A DNA stretch of 40,384 nucleotides from Bacteroidota bacterium. Its GTDB lineage: Bacteria > Bacteroidota > Bacteroidia > B-17B0 > Aurantibacillaceae. The notes under the pieces were generated by a model. That model ran no database searches, had not been told where the DNA came from, and worked only from the letters and a program-made list of their open reading frames with translations. The position numbers were made by a program, and so were the translations under genes. Shown one piece after another: positions 8,728 through 29,963 of this stretch (position 1 is the stretch's first letter; every line of letters starts with the position of its first letter). The stretch is taken from NCBI GenBank assembly GCA_030681615.1, contig JAUXSA010000142.1:1-40384 (forward strand), written 5' to 3'.

Positions 8728-11700
8728 TTACTTAGTTACCTTAACTCTAATTCCTTCACTATGGCTTGTAAACTCTGGCGCATACATACATTGTATAGTT
8801 GTAACCCCATTACTAAAATCACCGTAATGATTTACCACTAAAGGATACTCAAATACATAAGTACCTTTATTTAAGTATGAGAAGAAGAAATTTGTTGCAG
8901 CATCTCTTGTACTTTCGTAATAACCTAAACCATCCTGGTATCTGTAACCACTAAATACGTTGGTAGGTTCAAAACCTGCGGCACGCATATCTTTCATGTG
9001 CACATAGTTCATATCCCTGTCCACCCGCAATTCAATTCTTACTTTTATCTTATCACCCGGTTTTAATTTGGTAGTGCTGCTTATTGGTTCGATCACAATA
9101 CCGCTTGCTGTATTTTTTTGCAGAAATAATTGTTTCTTCAATTTAAGCGGCGTTTCGTGTGGCGTAATTTTATCCAGCTGTTCAAAATACTGCCAGTAAA
9201 CTGCGCCATAACTTACACCAACATCTTTCTTCACTACTTTTACCTTACCCATGCTTGTAGGTTTAATGTCACTTCCACTCCAGGTCTTTTTAAAATAACC
9301 CGTGCCCGGTTCTGCATTCAACGATTTATCATTTTTCGGATCCAGCTTCATGTCACCAACCGTTATCTCTACATTTGGTTCTGTAGCTAACCAATCTGTT
9401 CCTTTTAATAATAAAGCATACACCGCTTCCGTTGTTGCACGTGTGGTTCCCCAGTGTTGTGTTTGTTTGCTTTTTATCAACCAGGTCTTAAGATCATCAA
9501 CCGCTTTTGTATCATTATTCACTTCATCAAAAGCTTCTATCATTAAGGCTTGCATTTCGATCGGCGCTTCGTACCAGTAATAACCATAGTTCTCTTTCCA
9601 GTACATGCCCATCTCTTCGCTATTAATACTGTTCTCCTTTAAAGATTTTAATATATCTTTTGGTGTTTTAACATCGCCAAATCTATTCAAACTTAAAGCG
9701 ATCATACCTTGCATAAATCTGCCATTATCCAGCCAGTATTTTTGTTCCTGCGCTTTATAATATTCAAAATATTCTACGTTGCGTTTATCACGGTCAATAT
9801 CCTTATAAAAACTACGCATGTATAAATATTGAATAGCATTATAACTCAAATGATTTTCGGTCTTGTATTTTGGATTGTACTTCTTCATTGTTTCATACTC
9901 TTCACGCATTCTGTTATCACAATACTTAACAGCCTTATATAACATATTCCATACATCCGAGTTTTCGCGCACTTTAACTACACCTAAATTATTTAAGTGA
10001 CCAAAACCACAGGTAATATGTTGTGTGATATACCAATCATCAGGCATTCCGTCAAACCACATAAATCCACCATTAGATGTTTGTTTCTTCATTAATTTTT
10101 TAAGCGCGCTGTTTGTTTCGTTGCTCATTTTATTAAGGTCGAATAACAAGCCAACACGTTTTTTATTTTCGCTCTCGCTTTTAGATTGTAACACCCATGG
10201 TGTTTCTTCCAACACTACCGCTTTTAATTCCTGGTTCTTTTCAAGATTTGATAAGAATGCATCCGGACTAGAGGTTTTCCATGCTTCAAAAATGGATTTA
10301 ATTTTTGGTTTAGAATTTACCACGTATGTTGCCAAACTATTTGCGTAATAACGCGCAAAAGTTTGTTCAGCACACTCATATGGATATTCCATCAAATACG
10401 GAAGCGCCTGTACAGCATACCATGCCGGGTTTGCTGTGAACTCTACAGTGTAAGCGTGGTTTTTTAAAGTGGTAGAATTATTATTCTGATTAATGAATTT
10501 AGTAAAATTAAATTCTTTGGTTTGGTTACTGCGAATTGGCATTGGCATACTTTCTGTTACCAACATCCTGTTCGTTAACACTGGTACCGCCTGCTCTTCG
10601 CCATCAGAAAAATTACCAGCCTTAGCAACGATCTTATATTTAATGGCCGAATAACCTTCCGGAATATTTAAATTCCATTCGATAGTAGTACTTAAACCTT
10701 TTTTAACGGAGAATGTACGCGAACCAATTGTAGGAAATGGCCCTGATACTGCTTCAATTATTTTGGTAGAGATCTCTTGCTCAGTTAATGCATCAAATAA
10801 TTTCAATTCCGCATTACCTGACAATTCTTTATCTGATAAATTCGCGATCTTGGCAATAAAGGTCATTTTATCTCCCTCTCTGAAAAAGCGCGGTACGTTT
10901 GGCTGGATCATTAATTCTTTTTGCGTGATCACTTCTTTTTGAAACTGACCCGCCTTAAGATCCTTTGTATGCGCTAATCCCATTACTTTCCATTTCGTCA
11001 AACTTTCAGGAACAGTAAATTTAATAATGATCTCTCCTTTTTCGTTCGTTTGAAGTTCAGGATAAAAGAAAGCTGTTTCATTAAAATTAGAACGTGCTTT
11101 TACATTACCCAATTCATCTCCCCCTCTTTTATCTTTTTCTTTCCCTTCACCACTTACCGGCGTTTTTGTTGTTGTAATGGCATCATCCTGACTTACCCCA
11201 CCAACAGCTTTTTGTTCTGCTTCTTCCTTAGGCATGTTACCGTCTTTTTTAGCAGACTTATTTTTCTCAAGAGATTTTCTTGGTGCATTATCTCTTTCAT
11301 CTGCAGCTACTGAAGGCATTGCTGTAGTTTCTGAGACTGCATAATCCTCCTCATAATCGTAACCACCTCTGTAATACCGGTTATAATAAAAAGAAAGGCC
11401 ATAATAATTTAAATGATCGTAATAGCGATACGGTAAACTTTCGTAGGGATGGTATAAATTATTTAATTCTGTGGAGTTGGTTTGTTTGTCGGTATTTGCC
11501 ATCCATTGCAAATGAGAATAATAGCTTTGAAAGACACTGAATGACCAATAGTTTGGCCTAAAAGCATCTAATGAAGCGTCGTACATACTCGCTACCATTT
11601 CTGCAGCAGCTTTCTCTCCTTTTTTGTCTTTTATAATTAATTTCCATTCTTCGGCCTGCCCAGGCAATAGTTTATTCCTGAATGTTTCAAATTGAATGTC

Positions 11701-14700
11701 GAGTTCTTTATTTGTGTAAGGAACATAAACTATTTGGTTGTTAGAATAAAAACGGTTGTTTCTTATATAAGAACAATGCACGGCAAAATTTCCCCTGTCT
11801 TCTTCTTCAACTTGTATGTCATTCGACTTCATGCTTAAAGGCAATACTTTTGATGAAAGCAATTGACCCTGACGCTCTACCTCGTACATAAAATTTGTAT
11901 TTGGATAAGCTGAGTTATAAATAAAAGAAATTGTTTCGCCTGGCTCTGCTGTAGTTTTATTAATGTAATACCACTCCGGTACAAGCTCCGGCATATCTGT
12001 ACCATTCTTATTAAATACAGTCACATAACAAAACGCTTTTATCTCTTCGCCAAATTTATCTTTACAATTGGCCTCAATAATATAGGTTCCGGCTTTTAAA
12101 TTTTTTATTTCTGATGCCAGGTCGTATTCTGTTTTAGTACCTGTATCAAAAGTTTTATCAATTACTTTAGTATCTTTTTCCCATTTATATTTATTTGTTT
12201 CGTCAGCATAAAGATCATATGGGAAAGTTTTATAATACTCTTCTTTGTTTAGAACATGCCTATCCGGTTGCGTCCACAATCTGCTGCGGAAAGGTTTGTT
12301 AGGCTGTTTTAATTTATAAACTGCAAACGAACCTTTTGTTGCTTCGGCTACACCATTTAAATTATTTGTGTTTATTCGAATAGGTTTTATATTGCTTTGT
12401 TCTATAACTTCTTCACTCGACACACTTAATTGCAAGGCCTGGTAGCCAACCGTAACATAAGAACTTGTACTATGCGACTCTCCGTTGATATCTGTAACAT
12501 CAGCGCTGATCTCATAACTATACGTAGCATAACTTTTTTTATTAACCGATTCATCCGGCAAGGCTTTAAACTTAATAATGTATGCGCCTGTATCGTTTGT
12601 AACCGTTTCACCATTTGTGATCTCCACTTCAGAAGATCCTCTGTTACCATATGGGCGGTACCACCAATACCAATATGGATAATTTATTCTTCGCACAACA
12701 CGGTATTTTACCTGCGCGCCATCAATAACATTACCTGCATACGCCTTAGCAAAGCCGCTAACCGTTACCTCGTCGTTTATCCTGTAACTTCCTTTTACCG
12801 GATTAAATTGTGTTTCAAATTTAGGACGTTTGTAATCTTCAACAGAAATATACATACTGCTATGACCATCAGTAATACTCATTTGCCCGTTCAAGCCGCC
12901 TTGCGGCGCAATGAATGAACCATTCATAGTTCCAAACTCGTTGGTAGTTAGATCTACCGAACCAACTTTTTGATAATTTACATCGTAAAATGTAACCGTT
13001 ACAGGGTATTTTGTTTTAAGATGTTGATTTTTTCCGGCAGTACTTTCTATAAGTATCCCTTTAAAATAAACGGTTTGTCCCGGACGATAAATTGCCCTAT
13101 CTGTAAATATAAATGAGCTAATTCGCGTTGCGTTATCTTTATAAGGTTTGTAAGTATAATAACTGTTAGTATTATAATAATTATCTGCTCCATTTATGAA
13201 CTCAACATAAAATTGTCTTTCATTTGCAGAATTGTTACTCACATTTAAAAATCCTTTATCGTCTGTTTTATAAGCAGGACCTTTTTTAATAACGTAATCA
13301 CGCTCTTTATAATCATAATGTTCGTACCAAAGTTGGGCTGTAATATTTTTTAATGGTTCGCCGGTTTGACGATGTAAAGCATAAAAATCGTAAGAACCAT
13401 CATCACGGCGCCTTTCTTTTGAAGCAATATCAGAAACAATGCAGGTAGCATAGGCAGATAAATTATTTTCATAATTAAAATTCTCGTTCAACGAACTTAA
13501 AATAACATAGTAACCGGATTCCAATTCTGGTAATGTTATCTCAGTATTATGCGATTGGAAATCGCCATCGTCGGTAATGTCCTGAGTAAAGGTTTTTACA
13601 GTTGTAAAAGTCAAAAATTTCTCATACAACTCTTTACCATATTTTTTACGGAAAAGAGTTCTCAATTCCTGACTGCTTGTTTTTACGATTTTGTAATATA
13701 CTTTATTTACATTTTGAGATGTTACCAAAGCCCTGAAAGTTTTTTTTGGTTCTGTTACTTCTTCAATAACCAGATTATAAGATTTTGTATTAATAGTGTA
13801 AATAAGATTTTTACACTGTAAAGCGCCATACGATTTTGGGAATTTTGCAATTGCGCCTGTACATATTTCTACTGCTGTTTTTTTATACCATTTAAAATCA
13901 TCATTTTCAAGAGGCCTGTATCCTGCTGCTTTGGTATTGTGCCATACTGCCATCCTATAATCCACCTCTGTAACGCGTGAATTTTTAGAGAATTTATCCT
14001 GAATTGATTTTAAAGAATTAAAATATAAAGTATCGTTCTTTGGGTTTTGCGAATTATTATGTACATAATCCAAACGTAACAATTCTACATCAATTAAAGC
14101 GTTTGGATTTGTATCTTTTTCATGAAATAAAGTAAGATCCTGCATTAATTTTAAGGCGTAATATTTTATCTCTAAAGAATCGGAAGGATTTGTGATCTTA
14201 ACATCTACAAACTCAGAAAATGGTTTTATCATTTCTTCGCTATTGACATTAAATTGAGCAGCTGGCCTTGAAACATCCGGCTCAGTACTCATAAAAAAAG
14301 AAAGCGCGCGGTGCGCTAAAAAATCATATAAGGTTGGTCGCCATTGGCGACACTCTTGTGTACCTTTGTTTAAAACGTCATCATAAATATCAATTTTTGT
14401 CCTTTTTAAACTATCCGTATTTTCTAATGATGCTTTATAGTTAACAATAACGGCATTGGTAATTGTTTTAAGGTCCCATGTTTCAATATCATCGTTCTTA
14501 AAACCAACCGTTGTGGTGCGGTTATAAAATTTCCAACGGTTATTTTGAAAATATTGCCAGAAAGCATCGGCCAAAATACTATGAAGAACAGGTTTAATTG
14601 GATATTTTGCAGCTTTAGCCTCATCCCTTAATTTAAAGATCGATTTTTCTAAAGAAAATTCTTCTTTATAGCTTTCAAACTTCATACGGTGTAAAACAGC

Positions 14701-14949
14701 TTTTACAAACTGGGCCGAATTGTTCTCGGTTTTGGCTTTTTCATAAATAGCCTCTACAATTTTTAAAGCGCTCTCTGTTAAACCTTTATTTTGGCAACTA
14801 TCTACGCTTTTCCATAATTTAGGGTAAGAATCCCCTTTATTAAATAAAATCATGTCTTTTTTTGGTGAAAATTTGTAAAATAAACCTATTCCTAATGCTG
14901 CCGAAGCAAGCATAATTACAGCAAAACTTAGCGATTTTTTAAACAACAT
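8728..14949 (-). CDS. Bacterial alpha-2-macroglobulin with thioester motif
   Basis: A 2073-residue envelope protein. A single N-terminal hydrophobic segment (residues 7-28) has no lipobox, so it is probably anchored in the inner membrane facing the periplasm. From about residue 600 it has the MG2 signature DRAIYRPGQTVYFKG. A Lys/Glu/Ala-rich linker of roughly 80 residues (about 1205-1290) precedes the A2M domain (YPELQTNEKGEIIIKF, then SLTKWKVMGLAHT). The thioester motif CAEQ is present: Cys1526 and Gln1529. Helical toroid repeats and a receptor-binding-like beta domain follow to the C-terminus. Family members trap proteases that attack the envelope. E. coli-type partners such as pbpC are absent here; the gene is alone with its own terminator. 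The first 500 residues are less recognisable, with YWYWWYRPYG at about residue 760 as a local aromatic oddity. Confidence 0.9.
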   Translation of the reverse strand: MLFKKSLSFAVIMLASAALGIGLFYKFSPKKDMILFNKGDSYPKLWKSVDSCQNKGLTESALKIVEAIYEKAKTENNSAQFVKAVLHRMKFESYKEEFSLEKSIFKLRDEAKAAKYPIKPVLHSILADAFWQYFQNNRWKFYNRTTTVGFKNDDIETWDLKTITNAVIVNYKASLENTDSLKRTKIDIYDDVLNKGTQECRQWRPTLYDFLAHRALSFFMSTEPDVSRPAAQFNVNSEEMIKPFSEFVDVKITNPSDSLEIKYYALKLMQDLTLFHEKDTNPNALIDVELLRLDYVHNNSQNPKNDTLYFNSLKSIQDKFSKNSRVTEVDYRMAVWHNTKAAGYRPLENDDFKWYKKTAVEICTGAIAKFPKSYGALQCKNLIYTINTKSYNLVIEEVTEPKKTFRALVTSQNVNKVYYKIVKTSSQELRTLFRKKYGKELYEKFLTFTTVKTFTQDITDDGDFQSHNTEITLPELESGYYVILSSLNENFNYENNLSAYATCIVSDIASKERRRDDGSYDFYALHRQTGEPLKNITAQLWYEHYDYKERDYVIKKGPAYKTDDKGFLNVSNNSANERQFYVEFINGADNYYNTNSYYTYKPYKDNATRISSFIFTDRAIYRPGQTVYFKGILIESTAGKNQHLKTKYPVTVTFYDVNYQKVGSVDLTTNEFGTMNGSFIAPQGGLNGQMSITDGHSSMYISVEDYKRPKFETQFNPVKGSYRINDEVTVSGFAKAYAGNVIDGAQVKYRVVRRINYPYWYWWYRPYGNRGSSEVEITNGETVTNDTGAYIIKFKALPDESVNKKSYATYSYEISADVTDINGESHSTSSYVTVGYQALQLSVSSEEVIEQSNIKPIRINTNNLNGVAEATKGSFAVYKLKQPNKPFRSRLWTQPDRHVLNKEEYYKTFPYDLYADETNKYKWEKDTKVIDKTFDTGTKTEYDLASEIKNLKAGTYIIEANCKDKFGEEIKAFCYVTVFNKNGTDMPELVPEWYYINKTTAEPGETISFIYNSAYPNTNFMYEVERQGQLLSSKVLPLSMKSNDIQVEEEDRGNFAVHCSYIRNNRFYSNNQIVYVPYTNKELDIQFETFRNKLLPGQAEEWKLIIKDKKGEKAAAEMVASMYDASLDAFRPNYWSFSVFQSYYSHLQWMANTDKQTNSTELNNLYHPYESLPYRYYDHLNYYGLSFYYNRYYRGGYDYEEDYAVSETTAMPSVAADERDNAPRKSLEKNKSAKKDGNMPKEEAEQKAVGGVSQDDAITTTKTPVSGEGKEKDKRGGDELGNVKARSNFNETAFFYPELQTNEKGEIIIKFTVPESLTKWKVMGLAHTKDLKAGQFQKEVITQKELMIQPNVPRFFREGDKMTFIAKIANLSDKELSGNAELKLFDALTEQEISTKIIEAVSGPFPTIGSRTFSVKKGLSTTIEWNLNIPEGYSAIKYKIVAKAGNFSDGEEQAVPVLTNRMLVTESMPMPIRSNQTKEFNFTKFINQNNNSTTLKNHAYTVEFTANPAWYAVQALPYLMEYPYECAEQTFARYYANSLATYVVNSKPKIKSIFEAWKTSSPDAFLSNLEKNQELKAVVLEETPWVLQSKSESENKKRVGLLFDLNKMSNETNSALKKLMKKQTSNGGFMWFDGMPDDWYITQHITCGFGHLNNLGVVKVRENSDVWNMLYKAVKYCDNRMREEYETMKKYNPKYKTENHLSYNAIQYLYMRSFYKDIDRDKRNVEYFEYYKAQEQKYWLDNGRFMQGMIALSLNRFGDVKTPKDILKSLKENSINSEEMGMYWKENYGYYWYEAPIEMQALMIEAFDEVNNDTKAVDDLKTWLIKSKQTQHWGTTRATTEAVYALLLKGTDWLATEPNVEITVGDMKLDPKNDKSLNAEPGTGYFKKTWSGSDIKPTSMGKVKVVKKDVGVSYGAVYWQYFEQLDKITPHETPLKLKKQLFLQKNTASGIVIEPISSTTKLKPGDKIKVRIELRVDRDMNYVHMKDMRAAGFEPTNVFSGYRYQDGLGYYESTRDAATNFFFSYLNKGTYVFEYPLVVNHYGDFSNGVTTIQCMYAPEFTSHSEGIRVKVTK

Positions 14950-29255: not shown

Positions 29256-29426
29256 ATGAAAAAGACAGTATTGATCATCCTGCTTATTTTAAATGCAGTT
29301 GTATTATTAGGACAAATATGGCCTGAAGGTGTACCCCCATTTGCAAGAGTGGTAAATATTATTTTTTTGATCGGGAGTTTTTTGTTTTTTATCCGAACAT
29401 TCATTGGCGATAAAACAAAAAATTAA
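29256..29426 (+). CDS. Small two-helix membrane protein
   Basis: A 56-residue protein too short for the usual ORF threshold. It opens MKKTVLIILLILNAVVLLG, then a short loop (IWPEGVPPFARV), then a second hydrophobic helix (VVNIIFLIGSFLFFI) and a basic C-terminus. Composition and hydrophobicity fit a small integral membrane protein of two helices. An A/T-rich promoter-like stretch precedes it, divergent from the 28546-29193 gene. No function known. Confidence 0.5.
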   Translation: MKKTVLIILLILNAVVLLGQIWPEGVPPFARVVNIIFLIGSFLFFIRTFIGDKTKN

Positions 29427-29460: not shown

Positions 29461-29877
29461 GTCACTTTTGGCGCGCAAAAGTAACCAAAACGCATTTGAT
29501 CTTTTGAAGGAGATTTTTGCTTTCGCGACTTAGAACAGCGAAAGCAAAACCGCTACCTCGCTAAGCTCTTTTCTGTAAGCCTAATCAACTAACTGCCTAG
29601 CTTAGCTCACAGCTATCTCTCAAAAGATCAAGATGAAAACTCAAACACCTAACCGCAAAGCTACTTCCTTAAAACCGTACGCGTAAGCACACAATGTGAG
29701 CTGGCCTCATAAGATTTTGCTTAAAAAATCTTATCGTTCAAGAGCGGTGGCATATGCGAAGATGATTTTGGCTGTTCGCGAAGCGCTTAAATCATCGACT
29801 TGAATGATATTGATTTTTAGCAAAATATTATGAAAGCCTTGATTTTTTGGTTACTTTTTGATCAAGCAAAAAGTGAC
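29461..29877. mobile_element. MITE-like element with hairpin-rich interior
   Basis: Terminal inverted repeats: GTCACTTTT...AAAAGTAACCAAAA (29461-29490) matches the reverse complement of 29843-29877. Each end is itself a hairpin. Inside are perfect inverted pairs: 29496-29507 with 29620-29631 (TTGATCTTTTGA), 29515-29526 with 29538-29549 (TTTTGCTTTCGC), 29709-29718 with 29725-29734 (ATAAGATTTT), and 29761-29768 with 29789-29796 (GATGATTT). No transposase or ORF is present. Such elements are non-autonomous; the responsible transposase is unknown. Confidence 0.7.
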
Positions 29878-29933: not shown

Positions 29934-29963
29934 AAAAACCCTCACATCTATGCAAGGGTTTTT
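29934..29963 (-). terminator. Rho-independent terminator of accC
   Basis: AAAAACCCT (29934-29942) pairs with AGGGTTTTT (29955-29963); on the minus strand a T-run follows. It lies 20 bases past the accC stop. Confidence 0.85.

Follow-up and report, generated by a model that had tools for sequence, protein, structure and literature searches.

Composition and setting of the element

The window analysed here is a stretch of 40 384 nucleotides (assembly GCA_030681615.1, contig JAUXSA010000142.1) from a bacterium of the Aurantibacillaceae (Bacteroidota). It carries a composite element of 417 bases (29461–29877), flanked on one side by a 56-aa reading frame (29256–29426) and on the other by a minus-strand biotin carboxylase gene, whose 3′ end lies towards the element and has a terminator-like hairpin at 29934–29963. 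The window also contains a 2073-codon open reading frame (8728–14949, minus strand). The parts of the element are as follows.

29461–29877: the complete composite element, made of two inverted structured units with their heads outward
29461–29493, plus strand: left head, hairpin arms 29461–29470 and 29476–29485 (one C-A mismatch)
29486–29493, plus strand: continuation of the left head, CAAAA (29486–29490) and tail CGC (29491–29493), complementary to the loop over three bases only
29496–29631, plus strand: long-range stem of the left unit, arms 29496–29507 and 29620–29631 (12/12); the 26 aligned copies keep the stem
29515–29549, plus strand: variable hairpin of the left unit, TTTTGCTTTCGC/GCGAAAGCAAAA; both sides changed in 8 of 12 scored pairs
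29560–29606, plus strand: second stem of the left unit, GCTAAGC/GCTTAGC (29560–29566 and 29600–29606); both sides changed in 4 of 7 pairs
29703–29877, minus strand: right unit, head at 29877
29838–29877, minus strand: right head, arms 29867–29877 and 29850–29860, loop 29861–29866 (CTTGAT on the minus strand)
29838–29843, minus strand: tail of the right head (ATCAAG on the minus strand), after a spacer; six-base complement to the loop
29707–29833, minus strand: closing stem of the right unit, arms 29707–29726 and 29814–29833 (90%)
29735–29806, minus strand: inner stem of the right unit, 29735–29742 with 29799–29806, the most variable; both sides changed in 4 of 8 scored pairs
29761–29796, minus strand: apical hairpin of the right unit, loop AAGCGCTTCGCGAACAGC (minus strand), conserved in most copies

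Both outermost bases of the stretch are the feet of terminal hairpins in inverted orientation, so the initial annotation of this DNA had placed the element correctly to the base. The left hairpin (within 29461–29485) has the arms GTCACTTTTG/CAAAAGTAAC with one C-A mismatch, and the right one (within 29850–29877) the arms GTTACTTTTTG/CAAAAAGTGAC. When the two ends are compared in inverted orientation, they agree at 14 of 14 positions (29477–29490/29845–29858) and at 11 of 12 (29461–29472/29866–29877); the inverted hairpin ends that had been proposed are present, the repeats being imperfect rather than perfect. The claimed density of internal inverted repeats was borne out, with perfect arms of 12 bases (29496–29507/29620–29631), again 12 (29515–29526/29538–29549) and 10 (29709–29718/29725–29734), and 20-base arms at 90% identity (29707–29726/29814–29833). 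As had also been stated, the element has no substantial reading frame, the longest lying wholly within it being 35 aa. Read on the minus strand, the right half is built like the left one, with a head hairpin and, beyond it, a long-range stem that encloses inner hairpins.

Folding of the element is stronger than that of dinucleotide shuffles, none of which (0/100) was as good in any of three calculations. The minimum free energy is −126.2 for RNA of the plus strand (shuffles −90.4 ± 5.2, z −6.85), −131.7 for RNA of the minus strand (−102.5 ± 5.8, z −5.07) and −80.4 for DNA (−46.7 ± 4.2, z −8.06).

Copies and modules

The genome to which the window belongs (4.28 Mb, 199 contigs) contains at least 23 matches to the element, with 40 of 52 candidates scored, and matches were found in at least 34 of 60 genomes, this one included, with fewer candidates scored per genome. 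The possibility that the sequence is single-copy, which had been named as an argument against a mobile or structured element, falls away because it is dispersed and multi-copy. One further copy in the same genome is nearly full length (89%, G000:C60); the remaining ones are partial.

The copies are modular. The left 254 bases are frequently joined to a different right part, a different structured module can stand in for the first part, and units also occur singly or in tandem. Other modules, with unrelated palindromes in the same frame (GGCTC-palindrome-GCC), are found at loci L022, L024 and L034 and in the flanks of other copies, and constitute another fast-changing set of hairpins. At L032:2900–3300, a partial unit is flanked on both sides by an apparent copy of the first part of an epimerase-like gene, and may have arrived with a duplication.

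Covariation in the paired regions

Within the genus, 30 right units (A1) and 26 left units (A2) were aligned, and each alignment yields a consensus fold with 43 pairs. Pairing is kept in 96.7% of the cells of A1, where both sides have changed in 13 of the 43 pairs; in A2, the corresponding values are 98.1% and 15 of 43. Double-changed cells number 63 in A1 (15.8 in shuffles, 0/500) and 36 in A2 (7.3, 0/500), the shuffles ignoring the relatedness of the copies. One of five measures, further pair types in A1, is not above shuffles (64/500). When the partners are slid by one to three bases, pairing falls to 36–67% and double-changed pairs to 1–6.

The variable hairpin of the left unit illustrates this pattern: TTTTTGCTTTCGC/GCGAAAGCAAAA is replaced in other copies by TTTTTCTATTCGC/GCGAATAGAAAA, TTTTCAATTCGC/GCGAATTGAAA or TTTTCGTTTCCGC/GCGGAAACGAAA. 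Such paired variants imply either that the stem is kept or that one arm is copied from the other. The second alternative corresponds to palindromic DNA without any recognised fold, in which template switching at hairpins would rewrite the arms and ordinary recombination would spread the copies. The changes in paired positions are mostly from one Watson–Crick pair to another, as templated correction would yield, and we nevertheless regard this explanation as unlikely: unpaired motifs and spacers are alike across families and, weakly, across phyla.

G-U pairs are scarce, with 16 minority G-U cells against 99 double-changed cells, and since A-C cells (26) are no fewer, wobble pairs favour neither strand. 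Three G-U pairs are nearly constant among the copies. These bear on another explanation, that of a structured RNA, in which the units would be transcribed, often as 3′ untranslated regions, would have a regulatory, stabilising or catalytic role and would form an RNA pseudoknot at the head. The constant G-U pairs and the conserved unpaired motifs speak for it, the rarity of G-U among variable pairs against it. Typical RNA families generally have more G-U pairs, and the scarcity mildly favours DNA over RNA. We consider a structured RNA rather improbable overall, and the strongest of the competing explanations.

The head

The head consensus is the hairpin GTYAC-T(n)...A(n)-GTAACCAAAA; after it come stems whose sequence varies, set around short unpaired motifs that are conserved. 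When 295 genomes of the class were searched for the exact pattern GTCACTTTTTG...CAAAAAGTAACCAAAA with an unconstrained loop, it was found in 9 (none in the reversed control), and the wider pattern GTYACTTTT N2-16 AAAAGTAACCAAAA in 30 of 395 genomes and 16 of 196 genera (reversed control one hit). In many rows, the loop is complementary to the bases just 3′ of CCAAAA (CTTGAT/ATCAAG, CTTGAC/GTCAAG, CTTGAA/TTCAAG, CTTGACC/GGTCAAG, and also AAGTC/GACTT, GGTC/GACC and TGTC/GACA). Among the GTYAC heads (41 distinct of 44 rows), the longest loop–tail match has a mean of 3.68 bases, against 2.11 ± 0.24 with re-dealt tails (0/2000). It is of at least four bases in 24 of the 44 rows; 10 rows, including the 67-copy form of genome G334, have no match of three bases.

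Fresh data gave a stem variant, GTTCTTTT...AAAAGAACCAAAA (GTTC stem), in 34 of 395 genomes and 24 of 196 genera (control 0). Its loop–tail match has a mean of 5.06 bases against 4.19 ± 0.16 (0/2000, n = 47), reaches at least four bases in 39 of 49 rows and is below three in 6 of 49; an exact six-base complement is present in 26 of 35 CTTGNN loops. Taken together, the two patterns cover 59 of 395 genomes in the class. Of the two heads in the window, the right one has a six-base loop–tail match and the left one a match of only three bases.

Judged from the sequence, pairing of loop and tail across the hairpin stem is the pattern of an H-type pseudoknot; the same loop, stem and tail bases could alternatively form two alternative hairpins. 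Because the covariation is replicated across the head variants, it is the fold, and not just the sequence, that is kept in this DNA. The fold is real and common to different genera. Covariation across genera of an H-type pattern with an A-rich spacer would suit a structured RNA. The head contains two interlocked inverted repeats, and that both are kept in most rows argues against template switching as the source of the paired changes.

Boundaries and sites

Genome G334 carries 67 exact heads and its congener G037 none; unit boundaries can be read in G334. At nine of ten sites there, the unit is exactly 99 bp long (GTYAC...CAGCCGCAC) and lies in unrelated flanks; the tenth has an internal insert. 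The constancy of this unit in unrelated sites again counts against rewriting by template switching. In G334, a T precedes the head at all ten sites; over 98 distinct flanks of the class, the share of T at this position is 84% and that of G 0%. The 99-bp form also has a loose T-rich pattern upstream (about CTTTGTKKT before the head), either reflecting a preferred target or belonging to the unit as its outer portion.

The check for target-site duplications proposed in the initial annotation gave a negative result: none is present in the nine scored 99-bp copies of G334 or in 12 of 12 composite copies, the longest flank match being 2 bases. A classical MITE of a DDE transposon would account for the inverted outer ends, the length of about 400 bp and the lack of a reading frame. 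It would be expected to leave duplications; moreover, single and tandem units exist, and the 99-bp form in G334 lacks inverted-repeat ends, so that this origin seems to us the least credible of those considered. The annotation had left the choice between a MITE and a structured element; strong structure with covariation is confirmed, and a plain MITE is unsupported.

Several sites are common to different species, with flanks mostly 85–92% identical, and movement at these sites is therefore not recent. Five pairs of copies could be aligned at four shared sites, and in each pair one module differs wholesale, the remainder being alike. In four of them, the module is replaced by another module; in the fifth, a short, unrelated palindromic stretch occupies the position of the missing right unit. 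Differing modules at shared sites would also be expected from template switching with recombination. Two sites differ by presence or absence: 587 bp of G019 are missing from G000 (the genome of the window) and G006, and 553 bp of G000 are missing from G006. Since the missing pieces are larger than the element, these represent whole intergenic stretches gained or lost and not clean insertions. No clean empty site was found for the copy in the window; the nearest relative, G019, has different DNA there.

Partner genes, neighbours and promoters

Y1 (RAYT-type) transposase genes are present in 25 of the 28 genomes searched, with 72 matches. Neither head variant was found within about 1.5 kb of any of these 72 loci on either strand; a reversed-sequence control of the loose head pattern gave 6 chance hits. 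One candidate, at locus L170, is a bare 10-mer (GTCACTTTTT) and not a head. Palindromes of their own, of the ccttcaggtcgtgg and cgctcctacggagc types, lie beside the two Y1 genes of the genome of the window (L037, G000:C27, and L038, G000:C63); they differ from the element studied here. The element might have been taken for a REP mobilised by a Y1 (RAYT) transposase, given its dispersed palindromes, inverted pairs, asymmetric unit ends and fixed preceding base. Its absence from the Y1 loci, the other palindromes adjoining the Y1 genes of its own genome, and genome G006, with 16 element matches and no Y1 match, make this explanation very unlikely. A transposase with matching ends, for which the initial annotation had suggested a search, was not found at the 72 Y1 loci or among the commonest families of neighbouring proteins.

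There is no recurrent neighbour gene: the 131 proteins beside 84 sites match 161 Pfam families, the commonest of which has 4 members, and no transposase is found among the 25 commonest. At sites with both neighbours called, the gene on the 3′ side of the unit points towards it in 41 of 61 cases, and the neighbouring pairs are convergent in 21 and divergent in 8; these are crude calls by a simple ORF finder, and the sites are not all independent. By an equally crude count, 17 of 75 sites overlap a called ORF. The orientation bias is in line with transcription of the units as a structured RNA.

TAnnTTTG is the promoter consensus of Bacteroidota. This box occurs at a fixed upstream distance in at most 1 of 98 flanks, and sigma-70-like sites are no more frequent than in shuffles. 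A search of the window against Rfam gave 0 hits at gathering score; in seven loci, there were five hits at E ≤ 1, none over heads. The lack of a promoter box at a fixed distance, of an excess of sigma-70-like sites, of an Rfam match at the units and of a neighbour gene in common argues against the structured RNA.

Taxonomic range and phages

Plasmid and phage records were searched by BLAST. In Parabacteroides distasonis, genes for an HU-family protein and a smalltalk protein flank a unit that matches at 71% identity across 86% of the query (E 1e-15). Heads or head variants are found in Aureibacter (7e-4) and Haliscomenobacter (9e-3); those in Persicobacter (best 0.03), like the weaker head-like matches in Ilyobacter (Fusobacteriota, E 0.2) and Diaphorobacter (Betaproteobacteria, E 0.1), lie at E ≥ 0.03, where matches are short alignments complemented by reading by eye. 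In the pieces from Parabacteroides, Ilyobacter, Aureibacter and Haliscomenobacter, the apical motif AACTCGC...CTCARACAG can be made out behind the head. On an Aureibacter plasmid, a unit separates the cas5d and cas7d genes of a type I-D CRISPR operon.

The exact right-head pattern gave 17 stretches in named genomes, all with titles of Bacteroidota metagenome-assembled genomes, and none in viral contigs. When viral contigs were scanned exactly for heads, 23 stretches were obtained, with complementary loop and tail in some (e.g. GTCGCC/GGCGAC); four short viral contigs resemble, by eye only, pieces of tailed-phage gene sets. A Microviridae genome (MH572371) has the head alone (E 0.2–0.4). The head motif in this genome and in the 23 stretches suggests carriage by phages. 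Short matches in Staphylococcus and Streptococcus phages were judged to be due to chance.

Comparison with known repeats

The element resembles BIME/REP (GTAG) repeats in consisting of dispersed intergenic palindromes, inverted pairs and mosaic composites. As described in PMC3733652, such repeats lie mostly 3′ of genes and between converging ORFs, a placement that the element shares. The unit of the element differs in its length (99 to about 200 nt), its pseudoknot-type head and its long-range stems. Whereas REPs have a GTAG tag at the foot of a palindrome of 20–40 nt, the heads start with GTYAC or GTTC and the units measure at least 99 nt; the linked transposase gene is absent, as seen at the Y1 loci.

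CGTC-tagged REPs, as presented in PMC3733652, lack a dedicated transposase and have stems of 8–9 bp and loops of 4–5, with a conserved tag (CGTC, TGTC or CCTC), a stem whose first pair is A-T and a CCA tail. CGTC or TGTC ahead of such a stem, together with the CCA tail, resembles the GTCAC...GTAACCA of the element. However, GTC alternates with GTT in the element, the loop is usually about 6 nt long and pairs with the tail, and the tail, unlike the CCA described there, is CCAAAA plus the complement of the loop, with further stems after it.

MITEs share with the element the non-coding nature, the multiple copies and the inverted outer ends; the element differs in that it has no target duplication, its ends are separate units and no parent element was found among the genes beside 84 sites. 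Integron attC sites are alike in combining a variable stem sequence with a conserved fold. The attC boxes have the consensus RYYYAAC/GTTRRRY, and, read against this consensus, the GTYAC heads have no R′/R″ boxes. Searches of open-licence papers, by topic and with strings of the head and the apical motif, gave no report of the element.

Interpretation

The element consists of two inverted members of a dispersed, non-coding family of structured repeats that has no match in Rfam 15. By analogy, it would work like a non-autonomous palindromic repeat of the REP/BIME type, yet it lacks those of their defining features that were tested. Our preferred reading, held tentatively and at a little under an even chance, is that of a non-autonomous mosaic repeat that is acted on while single-stranded and folded, its copies being reshaped by exchanges with one another. 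The unit would be recognised in this form, more likely as single-stranded DNA because paired Watson–Crick changes far outnumber G-U. An enzyme supplied in trans would then place the unit after a T, and the copies might subsequently exchange modules by gene conversion. Against this reading, no mobilising gene was found at the 72 Y1 loci, target duplications are absent and the presence/absence sites are not clean; moreover, head pairing fails in 10 of 44 and 6 of 49 rows, and in the left head of the window it amounts to only 3 bp.

It is possible, though we find it somewhat more doubtful than the preferred reading itself, that these repeats form a class of structured mobile nucleic acid that has not been described before and spans several phyla, is defined by a covarying pseudoknot head, moves or acts folded and single-stranded through an enzyme, and is also carried by phages. 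The head occurs in 24 genera of one class with one stem variant and in 16 with the other, and its fold is kept in sequence that annotators regard as empty. Should the head be recognised by an enzyme, this would represent a new route of non-autonomous mobility; if the units act as RNA, they would constitute a common RNA family that is not yet listed.
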